Positions 7,922-24,708 of a stretch of 38,336 nucleotides of DNA are shown piece by piece (the first letter of the stretch is position 1; each line of letters opens with the position of its first letter). A program made the translations under genes and the position numbers. This DNA comes from a virus: IMG/VR virus record IMGVR_UViG_3300030333_007432, positions 1-38,336 of that record; one strand, 5' to 3'. Below the pieces are notes generated by a model. That model was not told where the DNA came from and did not search any database. It saw only the letters and a list, made by a program, of their open reading frames with translations.

Positions 7922-8392
7922 ATGAGCGAATCAGGTACTTCTGACGTGCAGATCACGCACGATCATTTAGTCCAGTGTTTAAGAGATTCAGTTCATGTAT
8001 ATCTTCAAACTCAGCTTGTACATTGGGGTCTAGTCGGCTCTAAATTTTTTCCTCTTCATCAATTAACAAATGATATTCAATCAGAAATGATTGACGGTAT
8101 AGACGAAGTAGCAGAACATATTCGTTCAATTAATTGCATGACTCCTTTACATGTAGGAGATTTGGTCTCTTCCCGTATAAGACCAGTAGATATGAGTGAT
8201 GTTTTTGATCAAGAAAGAATAATTCTAGATTTAAGTAATGCTCATGACGATTTAGCTAGTTACTTTGAGGATTTAGCAAAGATGTCTGGCATTATAGGTG
8301 ATGAGCTTACTCAAGATTTAGCTGCTGATCGTGGACGCGTACATAAAAAGAACCAATGGCATTTAAGAGCCTCTATGGACTACACTGGTTGA
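7922..8392 (+). CDS. dps: Dps-family ferritin-like protein, 156 aa
   Basis: Dps proteins form 12-subunit shells that oxidise and store iron with hydrogen peroxide, protecting DNA. The ferroxidase residues are all present: His34 (QLVHWGLVG), His46 (FFPLHQL), Asp61 and Glu65 (GIDEVAEHIR). Their spacing (12, 15, 4) equals that of E. coli Dps His51, His63, Asp78 and Glu82. The C-terminal helix DELTQDLAADRG...NQWHLRASMD also matches the family, and the 156-aa length is typical. There is no long Lys-rich N-terminal tail, so DNA binding is uncertain. It is the last of a run of small plus-strand genes before an unknown 66-aa gene. Confidence 0.85.
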   Translation: MSESGTSDVQITHDHLVQCLRDSVHVYLQTQLVHWGLVGSKFFPLHQLTNDIQSEMIDGIDEVAEHIRSINCMTPLHVGDLVSSRIRPVDMSDVFDQERIILDLSNAHDDLASYFEDLAKMSGIIGDELTQDLAADRGRVHKKNQWHLRASMDYTG

Positions 8393-23370: not shown

Positions 23371-23538
23371 TTGATAATAGTCATTATTATTGGAGTTATT
23401 TTATTTGCTTTAGTAGCTTATGGAATATACGTAACGTTTGGATCTGGTGCTAAAGACTTAAGAGACAGTATTGACGAACATGCCAAGATGCATGAACTAG
23501 GAATAGCTCACGGACATAGAGGTAAGAGATCTATTTAA
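23371..23538 (+). CDS. psbN: PsbN-like photosystem II assembly protein, TTG start, 55 aa
   Basis: The frame opens directly after the preceding TAA. Its first codon is TTG (23371), the only conventional start before the hydrophobic segment IIVIIIGVILFALVAYGIYV. The PsbN hallmark follows: GIYVTFGSGAKDLRDSIDEH (residues 18-37), compare Y-x-x-FG-x-x-(S/A)K-x-L-x-D-x-x-(E/D)-(E/D)-H in cyanobacterial PsbN. Then comes an extra 18-residue His/Lys-rich tail. PsbN is a single-pass thylakoid protein needed for early assembly of the PSII reaction centre. It sits at the end of the plus fibre operon and converges with the hli operon. Confidence 0.7.
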   Translation: MIIVIIIGVILFALVAYGIYVTFGSGAKDLRDSIDEHAKMHELGIAHGHRGKRSI

Positions 23539-23665
23539 ATTTTCTTTTTGATGCGAAGTGGTAGTCGATTCTCGATTTACCGTAGTAAAGAATGCCGAGC
23601 CAAACGGAGAACATTACTCCATCAAACCAACTTAGGTTATGCCAAGCTTCTACTGCGCCTTCCAT
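23531..23665 (-). CDS. 44-aa single-pass membrane micro-protein in the hli cluster
   Basis: The frame from ATG 23665 to TAG 23531 encodes EGAVEAWHNLSWFDGV, a short hydrophobic stretch MFSVWLGILYYG, and a basic end SRIDYHFASKRKFK. It is the last gene of the minus run that begins with three hli genes. Its 3' end overlaps psbN by 8 bases. I do not recognise it; its place suggests a thylakoid or photosystem partner. Confidence 0.55.
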   Translation of the reverse strand: MEGAVEAWHNLSWFDGVMFSVWLGILYYGKSRIDYHFASKRKFK

Positions 23666-23721
23666 TTATTAAATACCGAGAATTAGTTATTCATTTACAA
23701 TATAGCCACTTAATATAGCGA

Positions 23722-23886
23722 CTAGGAAGTAGGAGCTGGTGCATAGACAGGTTGAAATATCCTTTTACCTCCTTGAAAATCATCATCATCGTCATCATCT
23801 ATATCTGCTCCAGATGCAAAATAGATGATGAGTAAGACGACAACGGGGAGATATGGGAAAAATAATGCTAACTGGACGTCTGACAT
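23722..23886 (-). CDS. 54-aa single-pass membrane micro-protein with seven-Asp run
   Basis: The frame from ATG 23886 to TAG 23722 encodes an N-terminal membrane helix (LALFFPYLPVVVLLIIYFASG), then IDDDDDDDF and a GGKRIFQPVYAPAPTS tail. It lies 24 bases downstream of the smallest hli gene. Similar micro-proteins with a FFPYL helix and acidic run occur in cyanophages. Function unknown. Confidence 0.55.
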   Translation of the reverse strand: MSDVQLALFFPYLPVVVLLIIYFASGADIDDDDDDDFQGGKRIFQPVYAPAPTS

Positions 23887-23910
23887 TTAGGTTTAATCAC
23901 GAATACGCGC

Positions 23911-24018
23911 TTATGTGAAGTATGTGAATTTAGTGTAGGCAGCGACGATAACCCAGAATGCCATCATTGCAAACCTGCCATTTGCTCTTGACCAAATAGC
24001 TGCGTTAGAGTTATCCAT
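23911..24018 (-). CDS. hli: Minimal Hli-like protein, 35 aa
   Basis: Hli proteins are one-helix relatives of chlorophyll a/b-binding proteins that protect photosystems. Residues ~10-27 read SRANGRFAMMAFWVIVAA, which keeps the NGRxAM-x-x-F core (Asn and Arg for chlorophyll binding) with Ser instead of Glu at the usual ExxNGR position. The family C-terminal TTGQ tail is missing. One base separates it from the hli gene upstream. Confidence 0.65.
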   Translation of the reverse strand: MDNSNAAIWSRANGRFAMMAFWVIVAAYTKFTYFT

Positions 24019-24019
24019 C

Positions 24020-24214
24020 TTAAAAAATACCTGGGATAACTTGACCAGTTGTCAGATATGCTCCTAATAAAGCAACAAATCCAATCATGGCCCAACGAGC
24101 ATTAGCTAGTTCTGCTTCTTTAACGTATCCTTTGTATTCTTCGCTTATCCTAGGCTGGACTTCTTTTGCGAAGATATTTTGTTTCCCGTATTCGGTTGTT
24201 ATATGAGAATCCAT
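24020..24214 (-). CDS. hli: High-light-inducible protein, 64 aa
   Basis: I chose the ATG at 24214 (MDSHITTEYGKQNIF), which begins 1 base after the upstream hli stop. A polar N-terminus (residues 1-33) is followed by the Hli helix AELANARWAMIGFVALLGAY (an ExxNxRxAM-x-G-F match, with Ala for Gly) and the tail LTTGQVIPGIF. It is the full-length member of the three. Expected to bind chlorophyll and carotenoid in the thylakoid and dissipate excess energy. Confidence 0.85.
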   Translation of the reverse strand: MDSHITTEYGKQNIFAKEVQPRISEEYKGYVKEAELANARWAMIGFVALLGAYLTTGQVIPGIF

Positions 24215-24215
24215 T

Positions 24216-24323
24216 TTAAAAGATTCCAGGAATAATTTGACCAGTTGTAGCATAGGCGCCTAATGCTGCTACTACACCGAGCATTGCTGCCCAGCCATTG
24301 AACTTTTCTGCTTCAGGAGTCAT
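24216..24323 (-). CDS. hli: Short high-light-inducible protein, 35 aa
   Basis: The frame from ATG 24323 to TAA 24216 gives MTPEAEKFNGWAAMLGVVAA then LGAYATTGQIIPGIF. It keeps ExxNGxxAMxG (Trp in place of Arg) and the TTGQ(I/V)IPG tail, and is almost nothing but the Hli helix. It is the first gene of the minus micro-gene run, ahead of the 64-aa Hli. Confidence 0.8.
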   Translation of the reverse strand: MTPEAEKFNGWAAMLGVVAALGAYATTGQIIPGIF

Positions 24324-24417: not shown

Positions 24418-24708
24418 TCACGAATTTATTGTATAAAATGTGTATTTCAAAAATAGTTCTTCTCCTAGTTCTATGTTTTTTATAGTTTTTATAAAATAAA
24501 AGCCATTTTCATAGTATTTAATGCAATTAGGTTCTTCAGAATGGTTTATAAAACCACCTAAAGGTGTTCTATATATTGCTTCGTCTATTACTATGTGAGA
24601 CATGCCTAGCTGAGTATCTATAGGAATACTTTCTTTTGCGAAAAGACCCTGTCCTGCAACAGGACTTTCTTGTATATGTAAACTTTTTGGTAATGCTTTA
24701 TAGCTCAT
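24418..24708 (-). CDS. Minimal SET-domain protein, 96 aa
   Basis: SET domains transfer methyl groups from S-adenosylmethionine to protein lysines. The family landmarks are present in order: GQGLFAKESI (residues 19-28, compare GxGLFA), LGMSHIV, GGFINHSEEPNC (51-62, compare NHSxxPN) and GEELFLKYTFY (82-92, compare GEEL-x-x-xY). At 96 residues it is shorter than most SET proteins and lacks the post-SET Cys region. The substrate could be a host or phage protein. It lies between the porin-like gene and the hli run. Its ATG follows immediately after a terminator-like hairpin. Confidence 0.8.
   Translation of the reverse strand: MSYKALPKSLHIQESPVAGQGLFAKESIPIDTQLGMSHIVIDEAIYRTPLGGFINHSEEPNCIKYYENGFYFIKTIKNIELGEELFLKYTFYTINS

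Follow-up and report, generated by a model that had tools for sequence, protein, structure and literature searches.

The 38,336-nucleotide stretch analysed here (the window) comes from a 38.3-kb virus record, and at positions 23371 to 24323 it carries six tiny genes, all of which encode membrane proteins. A psbN-like gene on the plus strand faces five genes on the minus strand, an arrangement that had been described in a first-pass annotation and that we confirm here (Table 1). The minus-strand genes follow one another closely, with 56 bases between p54 and p44, 24 bases between hliA and p54, and the single-base gaps previously noted among the three hli genes present at both hliB-hliA and hliC-hliB. 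On its other side p44 overlaps the psbN-like gene tail to tail by 8 bases. The psbN-like gene is the last on the tail-fibre strand, and its start codon comes right after the stop of the preceding gene; in a close relative (L013) the frame begins with GTG at the same point. For hliB, the ATG at 24214 gives the 64-residue protein listed, and the frame is open as far as an ATG at 24253.

Table 1. Genes of the cluster, with the matches and motifs by which they were recognised
Gene	Position	Strand	Matches and features
His-tailed PsbN paralogue, 55 aa	23371..23538	+	TTG start; PF02468, phrog_8051, tail EHAKMHELGIAHGH
p44, single-helix peptide, 44 aa	23531..23665	-	phrog_9048 (phage-only family), E 1.1e-13
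p54, single-helix protein with acidic tail, 54 aa	23722..23886	-	phrog_7843 / T4-GC273, E 3.9e-10; hli linkage
hliA, 35 aa	23911..24018	-	phrog_178 E 0.0016; motif S..NGR (no Glu); without TGQIIPG end
hliB, 64 aa	24020..24214	-	motif E..NAR; PF00504 23 bits (cut-off 22.3); phrog_178 E 1.8e-24
hliC, 35 aa	24216..24323	-	phrog_178 E 1.2e-19; motif E..NGW (no Arg)

Compared with relatives, all six genes are under purifying selection, with dN/dS of about 0 to 0.25 where dS was measurable, and third codon positions hold most of the differences in all six frames. For p44 against more distant relatives, dN was 0.12-0.19 and dS at least 1.3. The complete six-gene order is also present in contig IMGVR_3300030376_007335 (L002/L013), and the order hliC-hliB-hliA-p54-p44 is kept in L002-L005 and L011, all marine viral contigs. 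The cluster is not a chance arrangement, since the six frames are conserved under purifying selection and their order recurs in other contigs; an artefact of open reading frame calling is ruled out by the conserved frames, the low dN/dS and the third-position bias. The two frames then without assignment, p44 and p54, on whose conservation the earlier reading depended, are both conserved in relatives, and its remark that such genes are easily skipped by gene callers is illustrated by phage S-ShM2, where the annotation omits the p44 homologue. A scan of the cluster found no terminator-like site between hliC and p44, and promoter-like matches in it were no commoner than chance. The Rfam search gave no RNA element at gathering thresholds and chance matches only at loose ones, and searching PDB sequences with p44, p54 and the PsbN paralogue turned up nothing credible. 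Next to the hli operon, immediately upstream and on the same strand, lies a gene for a small SET-domain protein (24418-24708, minus strand; Pfam 39.7 bits), which is conserved in L003-L005 and L011.

The hli calls hold for all three genes through their matches to phrog_178. Pfam PF00504 was passed by hliB only, hliA and hliC being recognised through phrog_178 only. The ExxNxR chlorophyll-binding motif is complete in hliB, lacks the arginine in hliC and lacks the glutamate in hliA. The three motif classes (E..NGW, E..NAR and S..NGR) recur in other arrays (L002, L009, L010 and L285), and on this ground it is conceivable that the Hli proteins form heterodimers sharing one Glu-Arg pair.

The psbN label given in the first-pass annotation proved right for the family but not for the gene. 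The protein meets Pfam PF02468 with 34.3 bits (cut-off 25), yet it falls below the NCBIfam PsbN equivalog (NF009650 / PRK13183), scoring 33.6 bits against a cut-off of 70, whereas four canonical host PsbNs scored 88-92 bits. It fails the equivalog because the C-terminus EHAKMHELGIAHGH stands where the short acidic end would be; the expected DP-[FW]-D-[DE]-H-[DE]-D after FGPP is absent, with DSIDEHAKMHELGIAHGHRGKRSI in its place. Like canonical PsbN of cyanobacteria and plastids, the protein has one N-terminal helix followed by GYGxYxxFGxxxxxLxD, but in addition to its different tail the gene sits outside the psbH-psbI slot. The predicted structure consists of a membrane helix and a second helix bearing the tail, at a mean pLDDT of 77 that is lower in the tail. 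In a tree of these proteins of about 50 residues the canonical forms occupied a long, fully supported branch, with little else resolved.

Relatives with the His-rich tail came from phages with Prochlorococcus as isolation host and from marine single-cell viruses; the isolated-phage search gave none among the records isolated on Synechococcus. This agrees with the report (PMC3037559) that only phages of Prochlorococcus have T4-GC163, which is a possible PsbN in the T4-like ones. T4-GC163 (phrog_8051) is the same His-tailed paralogue as the window gene, although the T4-like forms are extended at the N-terminus (SRPSVYNLPGTWEKQP...) and the window gene is not, and the genome position differs. A scan of genome collections placed the His-tailed gene in contigs with Prochlorococcus in their titles and in a few contigs from metagenome-assembled genomes (MAGs). 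Six of these MAG contigs (L093, L094, L096, L097, L122 and L126) bear the labels Euryarchaeota, Gammaproteobacteria or Actinomycetota; since several also hold a cyanophage outer-membrane protein, p54 or hli, they appear to be cyanophage contigs that were misbinned. The His tail formed part of the seed in both collection scans, and this accounts in part for its strict invariance there. The bias is smaller in the profile search of whole genomes described below, and among the host proteins that it found the tails vary by K/R, G/T and a few other changes. Taken together, these comparisons identify the gene, from its sequence, as a PsbN-family paralogue of Prochlorococcus and its phages and not as ordinary PsbN.

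When 151 Cyanobiaceae genomes were searched with the profile, long matches at E<1e-14 were obtained in 18 genomes; a second class, matching over only about the first 36 positions at E 1e-8 to 1e-3 and found in most genomes, corresponds to canonical PsbN. In ten Prochlorococcus genomes (G001, G004, G005, G008, G060, G064, G090, G114, G134 and G150) the His-tailed gene is the only PsbN found by the canonical profile. Canonical PsbN was detected at E<1e-23 in 16 of the 17 other genomes searched, the exception being G098, which at 1.2 Mb is probably incomplete. The usual place of canonical psbN is between psbH and psbI. In G060, G090, G114, G134 and G008, each a single contig of 1.80-1.93 Mb, this interval contains no frame matching PsbN, its length being kept at 332-378 bases, and in six comparison genomes it holds PsbN at 84-102 bits. 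The simplest reading is an apparent replacement, in which the His-tailed paralogue took over and canonical psbN was lost in one Prochlorococcus branch. The alternative is plain loss of a dispensable gene. In plants PsbN is a photosystem II assembly factor, while in Synechocystis a mutant in both psbH and psbN fared no worse than the psbH mutant (PMC4823308); psbN may thus be dispensable in cyanobacteria, and its absence need not mean replacement.

Some host neighbourhoods of the His-tailed gene can be described here. In one host genome (G071, L259; compare L265 of G003) it lies just upstream of two hli genes, which parallels the phage layout, and in a related single-cell genome it likewise adjoins two hli genes. 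In one host group (L257, L258, L260, L263, L264 and L267) a gene lies only a few bases downstream of it that encodes a conserved membrane protein of 57-64 residues with the pattern M.YLN..YL.Q..E and no Pfam match.

A canonical PsbN query gave no match in isolated phages. The idea drawn from that search, that no phage carries an ordinary PsbN, is contradicted by a scan of IMG/VR, in which 51 loci in viral contigs encode an ordinary-tailed PsbN, ending for example in FGPPNKNLTDPWDEHDD. An N-terminal extension of the LPGTW type is present in 42/51 ordinary-tailed loci and in 24/80 His-tailed loci, and 12 of the 51 ordinary-tailed loci have the same kind of primase as the window phage. In 13 of the 51 the ordinary-tailed PsbN faces p54 and two or three hli genes within 1.5 kb, as in the window. 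One slot therefore holds either tail, from which we argue that both tails do PsbN-like work. Because the His-tailed form is the sole PsbN found in ten host genomes and the ordinary tail occupies the same slot in phages, its most likely role is that of a photosystem II assembly factor of the PsbN type. Against this role stands the strong alteration of the tail; in PsbN it is the C-terminus that is thought to be functional.

The first-pass annotation had also proposed that the two unassigned peptides might be photosystem proteins; this idea gains support for p54 through its linkage to hli, but not for p44. Sequence comparison places p54 in an unannotated, host-derived family: phrog_7843 groups it with T4-GC273 and a Prochlorococcus protein (MSELQLVDSFPIWKAVLWCFYPMAALVLVELISRALPDDDDDFGGGKMIPAYQPVRAR), with an hhalign value of 97.6%. 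The acidic run inflates the family scores, and the N-terminal 29 residues of p54 alone gave no match. A single tblastn query of p54 found nothing in isolated phages, but the family profile and T4-GC273 did find members there. Among viral p54 loci with room for it, 60 of 65 have an hli gene within 600 bases upstream on the same strand, at a median gap of 53 bases. In hosts, hli lies within 2 kb of 22/31 copies of the family compared with 0/20 control regions, the related genomes among them not being independent. By reading the sequence, some host copies adjoin a PTOX-like gene (L268, L269) or a peroxiredoxin-like gene (L270), and in phages S-SSM7 and P-RSM6 the family occurs near psbA. It is chiefly this linkage in both phages and hosts that makes p54 plausibly a partner of Hli proteins.

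The same composition is seen in the hli arrays with T4-GC273 of the T4-like phages P-SSM2, P-TIM68, S-SSM7 and P-RSM6, in which tandem hli genes are followed by a same-strand, single-helix, acidic-tailed protein of phrog_7843, and the window cluster is a variant of this known cyanophage hli cassette. The window phage nevertheless belongs to another lineage, with a D5-type primase and a family A DNA polymerase, and in it psbN faces the array at once, p44 is added, and no psbA is present in the region examined.

The family of p44 (phrog_9048) has 225 viral relatives, and homologues in T4-like phages match the same family. In 80 viral loci p44 homologues follow mazG in 48 and a gp32-type gene in 16. 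All 55 records matching p44 in isolated phages are Synechococcus phages or S-type cyanophages, bar one single-cell virus, and a search of 151 Cyanobiaceae genomes, run without a positive control, gave no match. The peptides of Synechococcus T4-like phages are thus homologous to p44 but stand in a replication-gene context, whereas here p44 is beside psbN and p54. Within the window lineage p44 adjoins psbN in two different orientations. A photosystem role for p44 is not supported; it is a phage-specific membrane peptide, and its place in the cluster may be incidental.

Five of the six genes seem to be connected with protecting or assembling photosystems. We consider it probable, at roughly two chances in three (0.68), that the cluster serves an uncultivated cyanophage lineage, one that has a D5-type primase, as a module for the protection and assembly of photosystem II, all biochemical roles being inferred. 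In such a module the three Hli proteins, judging from their family, would probably bind chlorophyll and shield new or damaged photosystem II, and p54, a single-helix protein of host origin found in company with hli genes, would probably work with them. The apparent gene replacement in hosts and the slot equivalence in phages suggest that the His-tailed PsbN would stand in for or add to host PsbN in assembly or repair of the photosystem II reaction centre, through which D1 turnover would continue during infection. It is also possible that there is no functional module, and that small genes have simply gathered at the junction of late tail and early genes with psbN, p44 and the hli-p54 block as unrelated passengers. 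The neighbours of p44 in T4-like phages would fit such a view, as would L136, in which p44 faces a tail gene without psbN or hli. The psbN gene is on the strand opposite to hli and the rest of the cluster, and in T4-like phages (P-SSM2, P-TIM68) it is far from the hli array, which also counts against a module. We regard unrelated passengers as unlikely, however, given that the facing layout of psbN and p54-hli recurs in the 13 ordinary-tailed contigs and in L013, and that the hli-p54 linkage holds in T4-like phages, in the window lineage and in hosts.

The histidines raise the question of metal binding, for which the tail sequence is suggestive. Four occur in every host and viral tail that was compared, in scans partly seeded on the tail, and another HxH is present in 41/55 viral tails. 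In the branch that lacks psbN, the neighbour of the His-tailed gene is sodT, a nickel-permease homologue proposed to supply nickel to SodN (PMC4284471), with sodN also there in G008 and G064, and by reading the sequence we observed genes for a zinc-type ABC transporter and a Fur-type regulator near it in G015. The protein could on these grounds be a membrane-anchored binder of nickel, zinc or another metal, serving Ni-superoxide dismutase or metal supply, its likeness to PsbN reflecting shared ancestry of the anchor and not function. We give this little credence: the sodT linkage is confined to one branch and so is perhaps one event, and in other genomes sodN and sodT stay together with the His-tailed gene elsewhere. 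The hli neighbours in G071 and the related single-cell genome, the ordinary-tailed PsbN in the same slot of related phages, and the status of the His-tailed gene as sole PsbN where psbN was lost all point away from it and towards a PsbN-type role. The two ideas could be combined in a metal-binding photosystem II assembly factor that would couple reaction-centre assembly to metal supply, on which one Prochlorococcus branch would depend alone, with phages carrying whichever of two exchangeable tails suits the host; we offer this as a speculation that is improbable as it stands. The genes sodN and sodT, according to PMC4284471 located together in every cyanobacterial genome possessing them, are hundreds of kilobases apart in G060, G090, G114 and G134 (L253, L254).

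We believe the following points to be new: what the psbN gene is, that canonical psbN has apparently been replaced in one branch of Prochlorococcus, that phages have two kinds of tail, and that the p54 family is linked to hli. None of them was found in the literature searched, the coverage of which was incomplete. In some marine viromes psbN ranks among the most abundant photosynthesis genes (PMC8940887). Our results suggest that many of the viral psbN genes are members of a distinct paralogue whose C-terminus differs. The Prochlorococcus branch with the paralogue alone would be a natural test of PsbN function in cyanobacteria, and the unannotated p54/T4-GC273 family gains a likely partner, the Hli proteins, in phage and host alike.

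Beyond the replication genes named above, the window phage encodes an exonuclease, tail fibres and a cyanophage outer-membrane-like protein, and no close isolate of it was found. The GC content of the window, 35-39%, is compatible with a phage of Prochlorococcus, which is a candidate host. Host patterns in isolated phages are opposite for two of the genes, His-tailed PsbN occurring only with Prochlorococcus phages and the p44 family only with Synechococcus T4-like phages, and the window has both. The phage also encodes a Dps/ferritin-like protein at 7922-8392 on the plus strand (Pfam Ferritin 30.6 bits, phrog_3636).
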